Assembly (NCBI RefSeq): GCF_003298505.1
Contig: NZ_QNGB01000014.1
Coordinates: 1 to 64,000, forward strand
Origin: Roseovarius sp. TE539
GTDB taxonomy: Bacteria; Pseudomonadota; Alphaproteobacteria; Rhodobacterales; Rhodobacteraceae
Length of the DNA stretch: 64,000 nucleotides
Direction of reading: 5' to 3'
In this document: one piece after another, positions 36,845 to 47,954 of the stretch
Layout: the number at the start of each line of letters is the position of its first letter
Numbering within the stretch: position 1 is the stretch's first letter
Made by a program: the position numbers and the translations under genes
The notes under the pieces: generated by a model
The model's database searches: none
What the model was told of the DNA's origin: nothing
Seen by the model: only the letters and a program-made list of their open reading frames with translations

Positions 36845-37471
36845 TCACGGCCCCTTCGGATGCCGGTGGACGGTGGCGCGAAATTCCTCGGTGCTGTTGT
36901 CCCTCGGGAAGGGCGTGGCGGGAATCGCGGTGCCCAGGAATTCACACAGAGGCGCCCAGCCGCTTCCGATCTCGTGGATCAGCAGCCGGTCGGCGGGGAC
37001 GTGCCGTTTCACCGCTTCGACATTGGCCTTGTAGGCGGCGATGCCGTGATCCCGCTGCATCGGCTTGCCCGAGAAGACTTGGCGGGGGATCAGCATCCCC
37101 CCGGCTGTTTCCGTCCCGGCCTCCTGATCGGATTGCAGCACCGGCAGGATGGTTCTCTCGAAACTCGTCCACCAGCTTTCGGGCGTGCGCCATGTCAGCA
37201 CGATCTTCGCGTCGGGAAACTCCGTCATCAGTTCGGGCCAGAAATGCGCCGATGGCCAGTCGAGGCAGGAACGGTACCCGCCAAGCAGGCTGTTCCAGTC
37301 GGCGGGACCGCCGGCGATGAACCGGCGCCAGGCATCCCGTTGCCCGGGATCCTCGTTCAGGGTGCGCATGTGGTGGCAGGGGCCGAAGCCTAGGATTTCC
37401 AGTGCCGCGCGCATCGAATCGGTTCCCGTGCGACCGAACCCCGCGCCGATGATCCGGATATCGGGCTTCAT
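36845..37471 (-). CDS. sulfotransferase family protein (Sulfotransfer_4 type)
   Basis: This 208-residue protein has the phosphosulfate-binding loop GAGFGRTGTDSM (9-20), then ALEILGFGPCHHM and KIVLTWRTPESWWTSFERT (the second PAPS-binding region), a pattern typical of the short bacterial/fungal Sulfotransfer_4 group. ATG at 37471 (MKPDIRIIGAG) has AAGGG upstream; an in-frame ATG at 37537 overlaps the VOC stop by 4 bp and is an alternative. Acceptor unknown. Confidence 0.83.
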   Translation of the reverse strand: MKPDIRIIGAGFGRTGTDSMRAALEILGFGPCHHMRTLNEDPGQRDAWRRFIAGGPADWNSLLGGYRSCLDWPSAHFWPELMTEFPDAKIVLTWRTPESWWTSFERTILPVLQSDQEAGTETAGGMLIPRQVFSGKPMQRDHGIAAYKANVEAVKRHVPADRLLIHEIGSGWAPLCEFLGTAIPATPFPRDNSTEEFRATVHRHPKGP

Positions 37472-37533
37472 CGCGTGCCCTTGCGGGTGCGGCCCCTCGC
37501 GCGGCGGTTCCCGCCCGGTCGGGCAGGTCGGGG

Positions 37534-38034
37534 TCATCGCGGCGCCTGCGCCGGCGCCTCGGCCAGCAGCGCCTCCAGGTCCAGCGGGTCGTTGACCATG
37601 GCGAGATTTCCATCGGCGTCGCGCGGCCAGTCGGCCTGCGCGCGGTCACGGTAGAGTTCCACGCCGTTGCCGTCCGGATCGGAAATGTAGATGGCTTCGC
37701 TCACGCCGTGGTCGGCGGCCCCTTCCACAGGTATGCCGGCATCGACCACGCGGCGCAGTGCATCCGCAAGTTGAGCGCGGTCGGGATAAAGGAAAGCAGT
37801 GTGAAACAAGCCGGTATGGCCCTCGGGAGGTGGTGTGCCGTTCAGGGATTCCCACGTGTTGAGGCCGATATGGTGATGATAATCCCCGGCCGCCAGGAAT
37901 GCCGCCCGGGTGCCGAATTTCTGTTGCAGTGCGAACCCCAGAACGCCGGAATAGAAAGCGATGGCACGGTCGAGATCGGCCACCTTCAGGTGAACATGGC
38001 CGATGCGGGTCGCAGGATGGACAGGGGTGGTCAT
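37534..38034 (-). CDS. VOC-family glyoxalase/dioxygenase-like protein
   Basis: This 166-residue vicinal-oxygen-chelate protein is made of paired beta-alpha-beta-beta-beta modules. Metal-ligand positions are His in IGHVHLKVADLDRAI, His in HHIGLNTWES and Glu in YISDPDGNGVELYRDR. This matches the CatE/glyoxalase-like group. Substrate is unknown. It is the first gene of a two-gene unit with the sulfotransferase. Confidence 0.85.
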   Translation of the reverse strand: MTTPVHPATRIGHVHLKVADLDRAIAFYSGVLGFALQQKFGTRAAFLAAGDYHHHIGLNTWESLNGTPPPEGHTGLFHTAFLYPDRAQLADALRRVVDAGIPVEGAADHGVSEAIYISDPDGNGVELYRDRAQADWPRDADGNLAMVNDPLDLEALLAEAPAQAPR

Positions 38035-38135
38035 GGCGCCGCCTTTGCAAGTGTTTCACGCCACGATAGGCGAACATTTATTTTCCGCGCAATTGCGAAC
38101 ATTTCACAGGGCTTCGTGCGCTGGCGCACTGAAAC

Positions 38136-38717
38136 TCAGTAGGGGTCCGCTGGCCCACGATCCCGCGAGAGGCTGGACGCCCGGTGCGAGATCAGGCTTT
38201 CGATGGCGTCGGCGAGGTGGATCTCGGCGATGTTGTGATCACCCCGTTCAGTGCGCAGGCGGTGTGCTTCGATCATCACGTCCGCATGGGTGCAGCCCGT
38301 CGGCGGCTCGAATCTGTAGCAGGCAAGCTCGATCAGCAGTCCGAGGGGATCGCGAAAATAGATCGAATCCATGAAGCCGCGATCCTTGGGCCCGGAATGT
38401 GGGATACCGCGCTCATCGAGGCGTTCGACCGTTTGACTGAACGTTGCGTGGCTCACGGCGAAGGCAAGGTGATGCACGCAGCCCGGATCGGCCGGGGTGC
38501 TGCGGTGTACGCGGCTGCGGGTTTCGTCGGTGAATATGGTGATCAGACGTCCGTCACCCGGATCGAAATAGAGATGCCCCTCGTCCGGGTTGTCGAGATT
38601 GGGCTGTTCGAAAACGAACGGCATGCCGAGCACCCCTTCCCAGAAGTCGATGGACGTCTGGCGTCCGGCTCCGGTCAGCGTCACGTGATGTAGGCCCTGG
38701 CTTTGCAGTTTGCGCAT
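38136..38717 (-). CDS. VOC-family ring-cleaving dioxygenase-like protein
   Basis: This 193-residue protein is of the vicinal oxygen chelate superfamily, with LHHVTLTGAGRQTSIDFWEG (first His ligand), GCVHHLAFAV (second His) and FRDPLGLLIELACYRF (Glu ligand). Resembles MhqO/ring-cleaving extradiol dioxygenases but its substrate cannot be assigned. The ATG at 38717 is preceded by AGGGGGG. It is separated from the other VOC gene by 101 bp, in which I see no site. Confidence 0.85.
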   Translation of the reverse strand: MRKLQSQGLHHVTLTGAGRQTSIDFWEGVLGMPFVFEQPNLDNPDEGHLYFDPGDGRLITIFTDETRSRVHRSTPADPGCVHHLAFAVSHATFSQTVERLDERGIPHSGPKDRGFMDSIYFRDPLGLLIELACYRFEPPTGCTHADVMIEAHRLRTERGDHNIAEIHLADAIESLISHRASSLSRDRGPADPY

Positions 38718-38963
38718 GGAATCCCCCCTTGATTTCGGGCGATTATGGAAAGGATGGCATTCCATGCGCAAGGCTTGCGCTTGGGCGGGCACGGGTTTGC
38801 GGTGCCGCGTGATACGCCCGTCCCTTCAGGGATGACCGGATTGCACGGTAGCGAATCGTTGCCATCGCGGGGTCGGGGCGGCATTCTGTCCTTTCAACAA
38901 CCAAGACGTTTTACAGTGTCTCATTTCGGTCCTTCGAACGGGCTCAATGACGGGGGTAACACC

Positions 38964-39894: not shown

Positions 39895-40941
39895 TCATGC
39901 TCCGGCGCCGACCATGCCCAGGATATCGTAGGTGCGGCGGAGGATCGGCGCGGCGATGGCACGGGCGCGCGCGGCTCCGGCCGACAGGGTGCGGTCGATC
40001 TCGTCGGGATCTTCCATCAGGCGCCCCATCTCCGCCGAGATGGGGGCGATCCTGTCCACCGCCAGATCGGCGAGCCGCGGCTTGAATACGGAAAACGATT
40101 GTCCGCCCGCCTCGGCCATGACCTGATCGAGGCTCATGTCGGCCAATGCGGCGTAGATGTTGACCAGATTGCGGGCCTCCGGGCGCTCGGCCAACCCGTC
40201 GGCGTCGAGTGGTAGCGGCTCGGGGTCGGTCTTGGCCTTGCGGATCTTTTTCGCGATCGTATCGGCATCATCCGTCAGGTTGATGCGGCTCATGTCCGAC
40301 GGATCGGACTTGGACATCTTCTTCGTGCCGTCGCGCAGGTTCATCACCCGGGTCGCGGTGCCTTCGATAACCGGTTCCGTGACAGGGAAGAATTCGACCC
40401 CGTAGTCGTGGTTGAACTTGCGGGCGATTTCCTGGGTCAGTTCCAGGTGCTGTTTCTGATCCTCGCCCACGGGCACATGGGTCGCATGGTAGACAAGGAT
40501 GTCCGCCGCCATCAGCGCGGGATACCCGAACAACCCCAGGCTCGCTTGCTCGGCGTTCTTGCCGGCCTTGTCCTTGAACTGCGTCATGCGCTTCATCCAG
40601 CCCATCCGCGCCACGCAGTTGAAGACCCATGCCATCTGCGTGTGTTCGGCCACCTGACTCTGATTGAAAAGTATGGATTTATCGGGGTCGAGGCCGGAGG
40701 CGATGAACCCGGCTGCCAGTTCCCGGGTGGCATGGCGCAGCTCCGCAGGATCCTGCCACACAGTGATGGCATGCAGGTCGACCATGCAATAGATCGACTC
40801 GACACCCGCGTCCTGCGTTTCGGCAAACCGCTTCAGGGCGCCGAGGTAATTCCCGAGATGCAGGTCGCCCGAGGGCTGTATGCCCGAAAAGACCCTAGGT
40901 GCGAATTTGGCGCCGCCGGCACCTGTGCCCGCCTCGGTCAT
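39895..40941 (-). CDS. trpS: tryptophanyl-tRNA synthetase
   Basis: TrpS charges tRNA-Trp with tryptophan. The 348-residue class I synthetase has the HIGH-type motif PSGDLHLGN (23-31), the dimer/ATP segments [21 protein letters not shown] and the KMSKS motif in [11 protein letters not shown]. Divergent from the rhomboid-like gene with a 72-bp gap. Length and motifs are normal. Confidence 0.97.
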
Positions 40942-41013
40942 TTTGTTTCTCCGTCTGGAATTCCGTGCCTGCCTCGCTTACCCATGGGCCACTGCCCCGT
41001 CAAGGAGAGCCAG

Positions 41014-41703
41014 ATGCAGAACGATCCCCGGCCCCAGAGCCCTGTCAATCCGCTTCCGCCAGTGGTGGCGGCGCTGTTTCTGCTGATCGTCGTAGTCGAG
41101 CTTGCTTTCTCGGCCGGGGCCCGGGGCCTGATCGGCGGGCCCGGCGCCGTCGGCTGGCGACAGCAAGCGATTCAGACCTACGCCTTCAACAGTGATATCT
41201 TCAGCTGGATGATACAGAATGGAATCTATCCCCTCGAGCATGTCATGCGGTTGCTGAGCTTCCCTTTCCTGCATGGTGGTTTCACTCACGCGCTGTTTTC
41301 CGGGGTCTTGTTGCTGGCCCTGGGCAAGTTCGTGGGCGACGTGTTCAGCCAGCTCGCGGTGCTGGCGGTATTCATCCTGTCCGCAATGGCCGGGGCGGTG
41401 GTCTACGGGCTGCTCAATCCGGCACAACCGTGGCTGATGGGCGCTTTTCCGGGGGTCTACGGGCTGATCGGGGCATTCACCTATCTCATGTGGTTGAAGC
41501 TGGGACAGGCCGGTGCGCAGAAGCTGCGCGCCTTCACCCTGATCGGCGTGCTCATGGGCCTGCAACTGACCTTCGGGCTTCTTTTCGGCGCCAATACGAA
41601 TTGGGTCGCCGATGTATCGGGTTTCGTGGCCGGGTTCGCTTTGTCGGTCTTCGTGGCGCCCGGCGGCTGGCGCAACCTGCGCGAACGGATTCGACACCGA
41701 TAG
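41014..41703 (+). CDS. rhomboid-family membrane protein lacking catalytic residues
   Basis: This 229-residue protein has six or so membrane helices and a clear rhomboid layout, but its active site is lost. Active rhomboids need Ser in GxSG and His in a late helix. Here the GxSG position is GAFPG (Pro146), the catalytic-His position in NWVADVSGF is Asp200, and the oxyanion Asn after the conserved His92 is Ser96 (FLHGGFTHALFSG). It may be a pseudoprotease or chaperone-like binder. ATG at 41014 follows AAGGAG. Divergent from trpS, convergent with murJ (10-bp gap). Confidence 0.85.
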   Translation: MQNDPRPQSPVNPLPPVVAALFLLIVVVELAFSAGARGLIGGPGAVGWRQQAIQTYAFNSDIFSWMIQNGIYPLEHVMRLLSFPFLHGGFTHALFSGVLLLALGKFVGDVFSQLAVLAVFILSAMAGAVVYGLLNPAQPWLMGAFPGVYGLIGAFTYLMWLKLGQAGAQKLRAFTLIGVLMGLQLTFGLLFGANTNWVADVSGFVAGFALSVFVAPGGWRNLRERIRHR

Positions 41704-41713
41704 CGCGCCGGCT

Positions 41714-43252
41714 TCAACGGCGCAGCGCTTCGCGGAATTCGTGCATCCGGAACGCCCCCAGAAGGTGTCCGGCGCCGAAGTAGCTGACCAGACCAGCGCC
41801 CACGAGCACGAGCAGCGCGATCCATCGCAGTCCGGCCAGGGCGAAAAAAGGGGCAAGCGGCAGAACGAGCATCCAAAGAACCACGCCCATCAACGCGGCC
41901 GCGGCGATGATCCGCCATATCCGGCGCTTCAGCCTGTCGTCGAAGCGTGCCACTTCGCCCATCGGTCGCGCCCCCCGGGCCAGCAGGCCCACCATCGCCC
42001 AGCCTGCGAGGGTCGTGCCGACGGCGGCGGCGGCCCATCCGATCAGCACCGAAAGACCGACTGCCGCGACCGCGTTCACGATCATCCCGAAGACGGCATA
42101 GCGGAACGGACTGCGCGTGTCCTCGCGTGCGAAGTAGAGCGGTTGAAGGATCTTCTGCAACACGAAGGCCGGCAGGCCGACACCATAGATTGCCGCCGCC
42201 AGCGCGGTTGCGGCGCTGTCGTCGCTTCCGAAGGCACCGCGTTCGAACAGGACTGAGACCAGCGGCAGCGGCACGATCACCAGCGCGACGGCAGCCGGCA
42301 CGGTGAGGGCCAGCGAAATCTCGGTGGCCCGCGACAGCGCCTCGCGTGCGCCGGTATCGTCAGCGGCCTTGAGGCGGCGGGACAGGTCCGGCAGCAGGAC
42401 GATCCCGACCGCGATCCCCACCGCACCGAGAGGCAGCTGGTAGAGCCGGTCGGCGGCATAGAGCCAGCTGACCGCGTTGTCATAGTTGGATGCCACCAGC
42501 TGCCCGACCAGAAGATTGACCTGCATGACCCCGCCGGCGAGGGCGGCGGGGATGGCGATACGCACCAGCCTTGCGATCTCTGGGGTCCAGCGCGGGCGCG
42601 AGGGGCGGATGCGAAGACCGGCCCTGTCGGCGGCGATCCAGACCAGCACCAGCTGCGCCACGCCTCCGATCGGGATGGTCCAGACCAGAGCCTGCGCGAC
42701 CGCCCCGGTGGTCAGGGCTGCGGCCGTCATGGCGCTGACCAGCAGAACATTGAGAAGCACGGGAGCGGCAGCGGCGGCGGCAAAACGCCCCGCGGCGTTC
42801 AGGGCTCCTGAAAGCAGCGCGGCCAGAGAGATGAAGAGGATGTAGGGAAAGGCGATCCGGCCGAACTCCACCGCCAGGCCGAAGCGTTCGTCCCCCGCGA
42901 AGCCCTCGGCAGTGGCCCAGACCAGCGCCGGCATGAAGATCATCGCAAGCGCCGTGAGGATCAGCAGCACGAAGCCCAGCCCGCCGAAGGCCAGGCCCGC
43001 GAAGCCTTCGGCGTCTTCACCCGCCTCCAGCCGCTTGGAGAACATCGGAACGAAAGCAGCATTGAAAGCGCCTTCGGCGAAGAAACGGCGGAACATGTTG
43101 GGCAGCCGGAATGCCGCCACGAAAGCGTCCATGACCGGGCCAGGGCCGATGAAATTGGCGATCAGGACGTCGCGGACAAACCCCAGAACCCGGCTCATCA
43201 GAGTCCAGAAGCTGACTGTGAGCACGCCCGTGAGCAGACGGATTGGTTTCAT
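41714..43252 (-). CDS. murJ: lipid II flippase MurJ
   Basis: MurJ flips undecaprenyl-linked peptidoglycan precursor across the inner membrane. The 512-residue MOP-superfamily protein has about 14 helices, with the N-terminal signature SRVLGFVRDVLIANFIG and the conserved RLPNMFRRFFAEGAFNAAFVP. The internal LFERGAFGSDDSAATA is also typical. ATG at 43252 (MKPIRLLTGV) is the conserved start; the open frame upstream runs through a repeat-bearing intergenic space. Confidence 0.95.
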   Translation of the reverse strand: MKPIRLLTGVLTVSFWTLMSRVLGFVRDVLIANFIGPGPVMDAFVAAFRLPNMFRRFFAEGAFNAAFVPMFSKRLEAGEDAEGFAGLAFGGLGFVLLILTALAMIFMPALVWATAEGFAGDERFGLAVEFGRIAFPYILFISLAALLSGALNAAGRFAAAAAAPVLLNVLLVSAMTAAALTTGAVAQALVWTIPIGGVAQLVLVWIAADRAGLRIRPSRPRWTPEIARLVRIAIPAALAGGVMQVNLLVGQLVASNYDNAVSWLYAADRLYQLPLGAVGIAVGIVLLPDLSRRLKAADDTGAREALSRATEISLALTVPAAVALVIVPLPLVSVLFERGAFGSDDSAATALAAAIYGVGLPAFVLQKILQPLYFAREDTRSPFRYAVFGMIVNAVAAVGLSVLIGWAAAAVGTTLAGWAMVGLLARGARPMGEVARFDDRLKRRIWRIIAAAALMGVVLWMLVLPLAPFFALAGLRWIALLVLVGAGLVSYFGAGHLLGAFRMHEFREALRR

Positions 43253-45080: not shown

Positions 45081-45641
45081 TCAGCCGTCGTCGAAAAGGA
45101 TCTGCGGCGCAAAGCGGGGACTGGTGACCACCCTCGTGCCAACCGTGATATCGTCGATCCCGACATCGAAGATGGATGGATAGGACGAAACCGATTCGAT
45201 CACGATGACTTCTTCACCGTCATCCATGATGGGCAGTTCCGCGTGGTCGTTCTCGACGTCCGCGTCGCGCAGCGGCGTCATCGCGCCCGATCCGCGCACC
45301 TGTGACCATCCGATGAAGTACTCGTCGTCCTCGGCATCGTACTTGATCACGGATATGCGCAACTGGTTGACACCGTCATCGTTGGTGATCCTGTCGAACA
45401 GTTCCTTGGTGTTGTCGATATAGGTCGGCGTGACGGTGCCCATCTCGCGCGAGATCATGTCGGCGACGGTATAGCTTGCCTTGTCTCTGGCGCTGTTGTA
45501 GCGGTGGACCTCGAAGAACTCGTAGGTCGCGGCCAGCACCCAGATCAGCAATGGCAGCGTGACCACGGCTTCGATCATGATCGAGCCTTCGTCATCCTCG
45601 CGGAAGCCCCGCAGGCGGTTTATGAAGCGGTTCAGGATCAT
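45081..45641 (-). CDS. TadE-type pseudopilin-like protein
   Basis: This 186-residue protein has a short basic N-terminus, then EDDEGSIMIEAVVTLPLLIWVL, the TadE/F pseudopilin pattern (Gly-Ser before a hydrophobic helix with a Glu at position +5). The rest is a periplasmic domain. Such proteins are minor pilins of Tad (Flp) tight-adherence systems. It is the last of three adjacent genes, 1 bp after the preceding stop. Confidence 0.8.
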   Translation of the reverse strand: MILNRFINRLRGFREDDEGSIMIEAVVTLPLLIWVLAATYEFFEVHRYNSARDKASYTVADMISREMGTVTPTYIDNTKELFDRITNDDGVNQLRISVIKYDAEDDEYFIGWSQVRGSGAMTPLRDADVENDHAELPIMDDGEEVIVIESVSSYPSIFDVGIDDITVGTRVVTSPRFAPQILFDDG

Positions 45642-45642
45642 G

Positions 45643-46179
45643 TCAGAGCGGCTCCTGCACGAAGGCGGTCATAGACACGATCGCGGCTTGACCGCTGGAA
45701 TCGGTGTCGAGTGCCCGTCCCAGCCGCCACGTCGGAAAGAGCGGATCGTATTTCACGCAGGCCCGCAACAGCATCAGCTGGTTCTGCTGGCCCGGCGTGA
45801 ACTGGCGGACCGGCTTGGTGGGTTCCTCCTGATCGGTGCAATCCGTGCCATCGGGCAGCCCGCCGAGGCTGCGGATGTCGGTGGGCATCATTTCAAGCCG
45901 CAGGTTCTTGTTGCAATTGGCTATGATCAGGGTCTGGTCGCAGATCGTGGCCTTGATCTCGTCATGCTTGGGGGCGGTCCCCGTACCGAGGCGGATGTCA
46001 CGCACGGCGATGTCGAGCCCGCGTTCCAGCATCGTGTGACGCAGGGTGATGAGACTCAGTTCCAGCGACATCCCCAGCAGCGCCAGGTAGACCGGGAAGA
46101 TCAGCATGAACTCCATGGCGAAGCTGCCGTCCTCGTCGCCCCAGAGCCTTGAAAACATTTTACGGATGCGCGCGATCAT
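45643..46179 (-). CDS. TadE/TadF-type pseudopilin-like protein
   Basis: This 178-residue protein has the prepilin-like segment DEDGSFAMEFMLIFPVYLALLG at residues about 15-36 (Gly-Ser, then a hydrophobic helix with Glu at +5). The periplasmic part contains three or four Cys (ATICDQTL, IANCNKN, GTDCTDQ, LRACVKY), suggesting disulfides. It overlaps the TadG-like gene by 4 bp and is followed directly by the second TadE-like gene. Confidence 0.8.
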   Translation of the reverse strand: MIARIRKMFSRLWGDEDGSFAMEFMLIFPVYLALLGMSLELSLITLRHTMLERGLDIAVRDIRLGTGTAPKHDEIKATICDQTLIIANCNKNLRLEMMPTDIRSLGGLPDGTDCTDQEEPTKPVRQFTPGQQNQLMLLRACVKYDPLFPTWRLGRALDTDSSGQAAIVSMTAFVQEPL

Positions 46180-47954
46180 TGAGTCAGCCTCAGGTTGACG
46201 ACGTTCGCGGCGATGGAGCTGAAGGCGTCGGTGATGTTGATGCCGTCGGCGCGGTAGTAATGCGCGTGCGATGAGGCGCAGGTTTCCAGCACGGTTTCAG
46301 CGGTACCTCCGCGACTGATCTCGAAGCCGATGGTGAAGACGACCACGCCCTCGGTCTTGGTGGCGGCACATGTATCGAGCATCCGGCTGTTCTTTTCCCC
46401 GCCGTTCAGCCTTTCGGAACTCACGTAATCGTTCCAGGGGCCCCAGTTGCCGGTGGTTTCGCCGTAAAAGCGCGGCGACATCATGCCCCAGGCTTCTTCC
46501 CAATCGAGACGTTCCTTGTCGATGAAGCCGCTCTGGTCCTCGAGGTCGTCGAATTCCGATGCCGAGATCCAGTCGTCATCTTCGAGGTCATAGTAGCGTT
46601 CCGGGCTGGGATCGCGGAGGTAGTAGGACGAAACCACCGGCCCGTCCACGCGATAGACGCATTCGAGCCAGGACAGGTGGCAGTACTGCTCTACCCAGTC
46701 TTCGTGCCATTCCCGCGAGGGGTTGTAGATGTCGAACGCGTAGTCGAATTCCTGTTCCTGGTGGGTCACGCGGTAAAGATCGGAGTTCGGGCCGCGGTAT
46801 TGCGGGGAACTCTTGTCGAAGAAGTAAGATGTGGTGTTCTGGCCGTCGCCCATCATCACGATGACCTTGAGCGTTTCGGGCTCGTCGTAGTCGGCGGGCA
46901 CGTCGTCCAGAGAGCCGTCCATCTCGTTGGCGGAACGAAGATTATTGCTGACCGTGCGGAATGTCGGGTCCAGCATCGCCGCGCCCCAGTTCATGCCCTG
47001 GTGGCCGGAGGTGTTGCCGTCGGCGCGCAGCGCGTCGATCTTGCTGTGAAGGTCCGATTCGCTGATCGAGTAGGGCAGGATCTCCATGTAGTCGTCGGTG
47101 AAGCAGGAGCGCCAGCCGGATGTCAGATCCTGCCAATCGCCGTAAAGGGAGGTATACACCATCTGGTCCACCGGCACGCCGTTGCTGGTGGCCGAGGCGC
47201 CCGATGTGAGCGTGGCGTGCCCGAAATCGTTCGTTTTGAAACGCAGGCAGGTTGAATAGGTGTGCGTCTGGTCCACGGCTAGGGCGTTGAACATCGTTTC
47301 GGTCGGGGTGACGGACCAGCTGAAGGGCACCACCGAAACCACCGTGTCGCCGATTTCCGAGGCCCCGAGGATTGTGGATACGAAATCCTTGGCCGCGGTC
47401 TTGAGGTTGCCGAGCTTGTTGTTGCTGCCCATCGAGCCGGAGACGTCGAGCACCAGCGCCACCTCGAGCTTGGGCACCCGCATTTCCGCGGTGGAGGCTG
47501 CCGCGGCGCCGAGCGTCTTGACGCCCGAAAGTTTCATCAGGTAGGTACTCAGCTGCATGCTGGCGTTGGCCGAAACCTTGGTCGAATTGAGGGTGGTGAT
47601 GATGTCATCCTCGCCCTCGCCGTCATCGTCGATCTCGTGCAGGTACTGGGCCATGTTGGCCTTGAGAAAATAATCCTCGACGATTGCCTTGGCGTCCGAG
47701 CCGAAGGGTGCGCCGGCCCCGGCCAGAACCGCGCTGTCCAGCGTGTTCTGAAGCTTGGCGCGGCTCATCTCGTGGCGCATCGTGTCTATGGCCAGACCGC
47801 CTGCGGCAAGCATCAGCAGGAGCAGAAAGAGTGTAAGGGCGATCACCGCCCCGTCCTCGCCACGCAGGAACGCGGCAGAGTGCTTTCGCAATATGCGGAA
47901 CGCTCCGCCCGCTGCCGGGAAATGTCCGGTGGTATGGCGTTTTTCAATGCTCAC
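46176..47954 (-). CDS. TadG-like protein with von Willebrand factor A domain
   Basis: This 592-residue protein has an N-terminal prepilin-like helix (GEDGAVIALTLFLLLLMLAAGG, residues 32-53, TadG/TadE type). A large extracytoplasmic VWA domain follows, with the metal-ion-dependent adhesion motif DVSGSM (170-175) and later TFGIGF-type TIGFEISRGG. TadG proteins belong to the Tad/Flp pilus and are thought to mediate surface attachment. First gene of the three-gene unit. Confidence 0.88.
   Translation of the reverse strand: MSIEKRHTTGHFPAAGGAFRILRKHSAAFLRGEDGAVIALTLFLLLLMLAAGGLAIDTMRHEMSRAKLQNTLDSAVLAGAGAPFGSDAKAIVEDYFLKANMAQYLHEIDDDGEGEDDIITTLNSTKVSANASMQLSTYLMKLSGVKTLGAAAASTAEMRVPKLEVALVLDVSGSMGSNNKLGNLKTAAKDFVSTILGASEIGDTVVSVVPFSWSVTPTETMFNALAVDQTHTYSTCLRFKTNDFGHATLTSGASATSNGVPVDQMVYTSLYGDWQDLTSGWRSCFTDDYMEILPYSISESDLHSKIDALRADGNTSGHQGMNWGAAMLDPTFRTVSNNLRSANEMDGSLDDVPADYDEPETLKVIVMMGDGQNTTSYFFDKSSPQYRGPNSDLYRVTHQEQEFDYAFDIYNPSREWHEDWVEQYCHLSWLECVYRVDGPVVSSYYLRDPSPERYYDLEDDDWISASEFDDLEDQSGFIDKERLDWEEAWGMMSPRFYGETTGNWGPWNDYVSSERLNGGEKNSRMLDTCAATKTEGVVVFTIGFEISRGGTAETVLETCASSHAHYYRADGINITDAFSSIAANVVNLRLTQ

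Follow-up and report, generated by a model that had tools for sequence, protein, structure and literature searches.

A catalytically dead rhomboid kept between trpS and murJ in Rhodobacteraceae and the probable loss of its active site in place

Introduction

Rhomboid proteases (MEROPS family S54) have relatives that no longer cleave, and rhomboid pseudoproteases are an already known kind of protein. Inactive prokaryotic homologues are reportedly mentioned in the surveys of Koonin 2003, Lemberg and Freeman 2007, and Kinch and Grishin 2013, and single inactive bacterial rhomboids may therefore not be new as such. The origin of rhomboid pseudoproteases has been argued mainly from eukaryotic proteins with remote active ancestors.

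Among the described systems, the animal iRhoms (iRhom1 and iRhom2) combine a conserved rhomboid fold with the absence of a working dyad and a proline beside the nucleophile position. The iRhom-type proline before the serine position is by itself enough to disable rhomboids, the bacterial AarA included (PMC3149277, PMC6451368), and iRhoms act on rhomboid substrates (PMC3149277). The Derlins of ER-associated degradation are likewise catalytically dead rhomboid-like membrane proteins (PMC12615303). In Bacillus subtilis, the S288A variant of the rhomboid YqgP still works as an adaptor of FtsH, and this adaptor function needs an unobstructed active site (PMC7231995).

Here we describe a rhomboid gene of Roseovarius sp. 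TE539, located in a stretch of 64,000 nucleotides that was analysed as a whole (the window). A literature search, with most subscription journals outside its scope, returned nothing on this gene, and no family-wide bacterial rhomboid pseudoprotease of apparently single origin whose locus also houses an active form.

Results

The gene, its product and the modelled fold

The gene is located between trpS and murJ. It is preceded by a good ribosome-binding site, as a sequence-only reading of this DNA had stated:

39895..40941, minus strand: trpS, divergent neighbour (PF00579, synteny)
41002..41007, plus strand: ribosome-binding site AAGGAG, 6 nt before the ATG (read from the sequence)
41014..41703, plus strand: coding sequence of the catalytically dead rhomboid (P0001), 229 aa (open reading frame, PF01694, orthologs)
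41714..43252, minus strand: murJ, convergent neighbour, start codon estimated (PF03023, synteny)

A promoter-like pair of trpS (TTGACG, 17 nt, TAAGCG, found by eye; 40975-41003, minus strand) overlaps the ribosome-binding site of the rhomboid gene. Among the 186 distinct orthologs, 170 have a GTCAA within the 70 bp that precede the start of the match.

The sole Pfam match of the window protein at E≤1 is PF01694 (Rhomboid), with 60.2 bits (E 3.4e-16) against a curated cut-off of 22.6 bits, which agrees with the rhomboid-family membership proposed before. A Derlin identity was ruled out, as no Derlin Pfam entry matched at this threshold. The NCBIfam models for the GlpG equivalog and for rhombosortase gave 15.6 bits against cut-offs of 250 and 84, respectively.

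A sequence search against solved structures gave no match at E≤1, and a fold search was needed. An AlphaFold2 model was built from 59 sequences (pLDDT 86.9, pTM 0.82). GlpG structures were the top matches of this model in Foldseek (best E 2.9e-5), and in VIA-align iRhom1 (Z 18.8) and GlpG (Z 18.7) were tied, whereas the structural match to a Derlin, chain 7y4w_W of an ERAD complex, was weaker (Z 9.2). The six-helix rhomboid fold is kept in the model; the layout and membrane segments had been described as intact before. About 15 residues stand ahead of TM1 (helix 16-36), 53 residues lead from TM1 to the helix 90-108, and the TM4 helix begins at residue 145. Judged by this model, two features of the iRhoms are missing from the protein, namely the long cytosolic N-terminus and, between TM1 and TM2, the large iRhom homology domain.

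Residues at the former active site

Residues were mapped by two agreeing alignments, one to the rhomboid profile and one to E. coli GlpG. In the following list, dead segments are the 186 distinct ortholog segments described in the next section:

41098..41100, plus strand: Glu29 in TM1; E in 186 of 186 dead segments (ortholog alignment)
41158..41160, plus strand: Arg49 in loop 1; R in 186 of 186 dead segments (ortholog alignment)
41248..41250, plus strand: Arg79, equivalent to GlpG R137; R in 182 of 186 dead segments (GlpG alignment)
41272..41274, plus strand: His87, equivalent to GlpG H145, retained; H in 173 of 186 dead segments (GlpG alignment)
41299..41301, plus strand: Ser96, codon TCC, at the oxyanion Asn site (GlpG N154; GlpG alignment)
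41446..41448, plus strand: Phe145, codon TTT, at the catalytic Ser site (GlpG S201; profile and GlpG alignments)
41449..41451, plus strand: Pro146, codon CCG, at GlpG G202, the second Gly of GxSG (profile and GlpG alignments)
41611..41613, plus strand: Asp200, codon GAT, at the catalytic His site (GlpG H254; GlpG alignment)

The catalytic serine had earlier been read as replaced by Pro146, which is wrong by one position. Phe145 stands at S201 and Pro146 at G202, and of the 27 outgroup rows, 26 carry serine in the profile column of Phe145 and one is misaligned; the motif has changed from GASG to GAFP. In the alignment with GlpG, Asp200 and Ser96 kept the places assigned to them, at His254 and Asn154 of GlpG, and the serine position moved to 145. 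The earlier statement that all catalytic residues are replaced holds for Ser, His and Asn, but the residue at GlpG His150 is still a histidine (His92). Further equivalences to GlpG are Y149 with Y205 and G153 with G209. The protein has no serine at the start of TM4, no histidine in TM6 and no oxyanion asparagine in TM2.

As a control, the best 27 loci outside the family, from a search of the class, were inspected. Asn is present in all 27, and Ser and His in 26 each; one misaligned row and one truncated row account for the two missing residues. All three residues are also present in each of 34 active rows of the same family (two of them identical) and in the 33 rows of the second rhomboid type described below. 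Since the mapping agrees across two alignments and these controls, chance or misalignment was ruled out. The fold, the GxxxG of TM6 and His145 are common to GlpG, the active same-family rhomboids and the window protein, whereas Ser, the following Gly, His and Asn, which GlpG and the active rhomboids keep, are all four replaced. Arg137 of GlpG recurs in the window protein as Arg79, in contrast to the active same-family rows, where M, S or T is found.

The proline of the iRhoms precedes the serine position (GPx), whereas that of the window protein follows it (GxFP): Ala144 stands directly before the serine position and Pro146 after it. The likeness to the iRhoms at this site thus looks convergent (iRhom motif: PMC3149277, PMC6451368). 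Overall, the window protein is a member of the rhomboid superfamily and is neither a rhomboid protease nor an iRhom nor a Derlin. As all 59 dead-form members that were scanned match PF01694 (E≤0.001), annotation by this domain match alone would take the dead form for a protease.

Conservation among the dead orthologs

Loci were selected for their similarity to the window protein, and the resulting 202 yield the 186 distinct segments. Of these loci, 80 are the best matches of one pattern-based scan; named and unnamed sets overlap and were merged only where segments are identical. Another 69-ortholog set was taken among the family matches listed, which end before the weakest matches. In none of the 186 segments is the Ser145/His200 pair present, and neither His at 200 nor Asn at 96 occurs in any of them. 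Position 145 is F, Y or W in 177 segments and another residue in 9, position 146 is Pro in 180, position 149 is Y or F in 182, and position 200 is D or E in 181; of the five others, four carry A, R, Q and N, respectively, and one is truncated at this position. The replacements thus recur among the orthologs, a comparison that the sequence-only reading had suggested. Serine at 145 was found in two segments (L231, L237), where it is paired with Asp and Asn at 200 and not with His, and Pro at 144 in one. These two divergent members (genomes G059 and G209, respectively) carry GSSPG, perhaps as intermediates or reversions. The deep members vary at the old catalytic site.

When 224 columns were ranked by entropy, G153 came 4th, G150 8th, P146 18th and Y149 36th; counted by exact residue, D200 was 52nd, F145 85th and the old oxyanion position 96 132nd. 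Thus, P146 and its surroundings are tightly kept, while positions 145 and 200, only moderately constrained by exact residue, preserve the type of residue more than its identity. P146 and Y149 are also among the 17 invariant columns of one alignment of 34 orthologs. His92 is kept in only 129 of the 186 segments, and the Ser or Thr residues conserved in more than 60% of segments (T91, S123, T156, S211) include none at the old nucleophile position.

The strongest constraint in the dead copies includes E29, R49, R79, A173-F174 and G217/R227, away from the old site. R79 and A173-F174 differ between dead and active copies, while Glu29 and Arg49 are each shared with 33 of the 34 active same-family rows; the outgroup is not comparable at Glu29 (14 of 16 rows are gaps) or Arg49 (9 of 16), as its matches mostly start later. 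Active and outgroup rows were trimmed to the profile match, and their ends are not comparable.

Distribution and the trpS-murJ slot

The window protein is matched in 237 of 248 genomes of the family (E≤1e-3), in a mixture of dead and active forms, and 11 genomes have no match at this threshold. The weakest matches include genomes whose best match is an active rhomboid. In a sample of the order all 121 genomes with a match, out of 121, belong to the same family, 120 of them at 181 bits or more and G328 at 95 bits. The best 80 named loci fall to Roseovarius (24), Shimia (8), Leisingera (4) and other genera, with 10 lacking a genus. G312, of the same genus as the window genome, and Roseovarius sp. 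EGI FJ00037 encode identical copies of the protein.

trpS is located beside the dead gene in all loci of three sets (69/69, 80/80 and 29/29), and murJ was also seen, within the flanks examined, in 55, 71 and 26 of them, respectively. At 23 deeper dead loci (L211-L232, L237) trpS was found in 21 and murJ in 18 cases. No rhomboid was detected by profile (E≤0.01) in the examined flanks of 23 trpS loci from other families. Both neighbours face the other way and give no operon clue to a client. At every locus where trpS or murJ was seen it runs against the gene, and the idea of deriving a function from these neighbours was given up for this reason.

In at least eight genomes (G328, G122, G083, G101, G162, G598, G630, G586) the same slot holds a same-family rhomboid with Ser, His and Asn. 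The search for such slot-active genomes covered the best 30 loci and the genomes with weak matches, so that eight is a lower bound. Both trpS and murJ were seen for seven of them, and trpS alone for G101.

Two second matches with an in-frame TAG were observed, at G276:C11:50921-51520 and at G279:C2:41658-42257 (L260), L260 being of the active type. At G032:C51:40644-41069 a Rhomboid-domain match contains an in-frame TGA and is possibly a broken slot copy.

Selection on the dead form

Nei-Gojobori estimates over 179 coding segments yielded 4571 pairs with dS 0.05-1. dN/dS is below 1 in every pair (median 0.44, maximum 0.92), the outcome that the sequence-only reading had proposed to look for. 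Among the pairs listed, the closest 12 (dS up to 0.36) have values of 0.02-0.15, two of them with equal values sharing L172 and probably being one pair counted twice; the 13th pair has 0.47. The high dN/dS of distant pairs may come in part from saturation in GC-rich sequence. The 70 rows of one ortholog set are full length (224-239 aa), and a pseudogene was ruled out by the full-length frames together with dN/dS. The earlier view that the gene is not simply decaying is well supported by the full-length orthologs, the purifying selection in the closest pairs and the intact modelled fold.

Phylogeny and the loss of catalysis

In a rhomboid tree built with the catalytic columns left out, the 39 dead rows form one clade (SH-aLRT 98). 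Another clade (97) holds 33 of the 34 active same-family rows, including all nine slot-active copies; the active row L249 falls outside both, and the outgroup root is weak (support 52). A TrpS tree was taken as a proxy for the species. It unites 36 of 37 dead-copy genomes (91) and seven of the eight slot-active genomes (90), with G328 alone beside the latter; in the free tree the dead-copy genome G059 (L231) is placed outside all the remaining genomes (fork 84). Holding all 37 dead-copy genomes together, or all slot-active genomes together, gave likelihoods above that of the free quick tree (p-AU 0.92 and 0.89, respectively), so that neither clade is rejected and neither is proved. Considering the active relatives in the slot, the single dead clade and the low dN/dS in the closest pairs, the probable course of events, as far as sequence comparison can tell, is a single loss of catalysis in the slot itself, after which the dead protein was kept.

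At L220 (G206:C33 171800-173141) an active and a dead rhomboid lie side by side between trpS and murJ. For this reason, a tandem duplication was considered as the origin of the dead copy. However, the active copy of G206 groups with an active copy found elsewhere (support 85), and G206 itself lies inside the TrpS clade of the dead-copy genomes, which a later insertion fits equally well.

A second, intact rhomboid

The window genome encodes one other rhomboid (L001 1324-2070, G000:C26), in which Ser, His and Asn are intact, as they are in all 33 aligned rows of this second type. Among 18 dead-copy genomes that were read, 14 carry an intact second rhomboid that was read, three have an unread PF01694 match above 110 bits, and one (G030) has no other rhomboid match. 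Matches to the second type were obtained in two of the eight slot-active genomes (G162 and G598), where they are more distant than most; the genome of G122 is only 76% complete, and G206 gave no such match. This distribution is compatible with, though no proof of, another gene having provided proteolysis by the time the slot gene gave it up.

Discussion

The marks of a pseudoprotease, namely a fold kept (here in a model), catalytic residues lost and a protein maintained by selection, were all found for the window protein. That it is a dead but maintained rhomboid is well supported by sequence comparison, through the absence of the Ser/His pair from all 186 segments, the purifying selection, the modelled fold and the active relatives in the slot. 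We somewhat favour the fuller reading that it is a rhomboid pseudoprotease which arose by a single in-place loss, was kept by selection and serves as a non-cleaving binder of transmembrane helices. According to this model, the rhomboid fold was retained while the Ser-His dyad and the oxyanion Asn disappeared in the slot, the intact second rhomboid would have covered proteolysis and left the slot gene free to give up cleavage, and the aromatic-Pro pair F/Y145-P146 facing D/E200 would fill the old site and turn it into a non-cleaving binding or structural site. The retained fold could then bind client membrane proteins by their transmembrane helices and hold them uncut; the clients might be handed to a processive protease such as FtsH, or be stabilised or escorted.

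By analogy with the iRhoms, the Derlins and the adaptor function of YqgP, we infer that such non-cleaving binding is the most likely role. The proposed way of working, to bind membrane clients and pass them on, would resemble that of the Derlins. YqgP may serve as a precedent for a catalysis-independent function of a bacterial rhomboid, although YqgP is proteolytically active and carries a metal-binding domain at its N-terminus, whereas the window protein has no dyad and about 15 residues before TM1. Furthermore, the aromatic residue at the old site, set against the unobstructed site needed by the YqgP adaptor, counts against a plain YqgP-like mechanism.

The dead protein might instead antagonise or regulate the active rhomboid that the genome also encodes, shielding its substrates or forming a complex with the enzyme, an effect akin to that of the iRhoms on rhomboid substrates. 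The intact rhomboid in the window genome and in 14 of the 18 dead-copy genomes fits this explanation, but the joint presence may reflect no more than proteolysis being provided by another gene, in G030 the dead copy stands without any further rhomboid match, and iRhoms, as Zettl et al. concluded (PMC3149277), act on substrates and not by inhibiting enzymes; we regard it as unlikely. A new activity at a remodelled site, built from Asp/Glu200 with Tyr149/Tyr145 or with His87/His92, would account for a site that appears rebuilt and not drifting (D/E at 200 in 181 and Y/F at 149 in 182 of 186 segments). Such an activity, be it another hydrolysis or lipid or ion handling, is on the whole quite unlikely, given that residue 145 varies in deep members, that His92 is found in 129 of 186 segments only and that the conserved Ser/Thr residues T91, S123, T156 and S211 lie away from the old nucleophile position.

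Constraint away from the old site (E29, R49, R79, A173-F174, G217/R227), with R79 and A173-F174 differing from the active copies, would fit a structural role for a single client, for example as a subunit or assembly factor of one membrane complex. E29 and R49, being common to the active copies, are not special to the dead form, however, and no co-oriented neighbour names a partner; we regard this role as very unlikely. Least probable of all is a decaying relic of a protease on its way out: the 70 full-length rows, a dN/dS that stays below 1 throughout the 4571 pairs and is 0.02-0.15 among the closest 12 of those listed, and the 17 invariant columns in 34 sequences, P146 and Y149 included, outweigh the 11 of 248 family genomes without a match, the variation of deep members at the old site, the in-frame TGA in the G032 match and the dN/dS of up to 0.92 in some pairs.

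The pseudoprotease reading might be extended to a bacterial counterpart of iRhoms and Derlins: a family-wide pseudoprotease of single origin that acts in membrane-protein quality control, by client holding with handover to FtsH or by escort, whose active ancestral form still occupies the slot in early-branching relatives and whose proline-beside-nucleophile site arose independently of the animal one. Taken as a whole, we consider this possible but hold it only tentatively. With dyad-bearing and dyad-less forms at one locus in one family, the substitutions could be exchanged between real, cultivable relatives, and since a few relatives still have the working form in this slot, it is possible to study directly how a 'dead enzyme' comes about.

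Elsewhere in the window, three adjacent open reading frames (45081-47954, minus strand) presumably encode proteins resembling TadE/TadG-type pilus-assembly proteins, and the region 36845-38792 (minus strand) holds what we take to be a sulfotransferase-like frame followed by two frames of the glyoxalase/dioxygenase fold.
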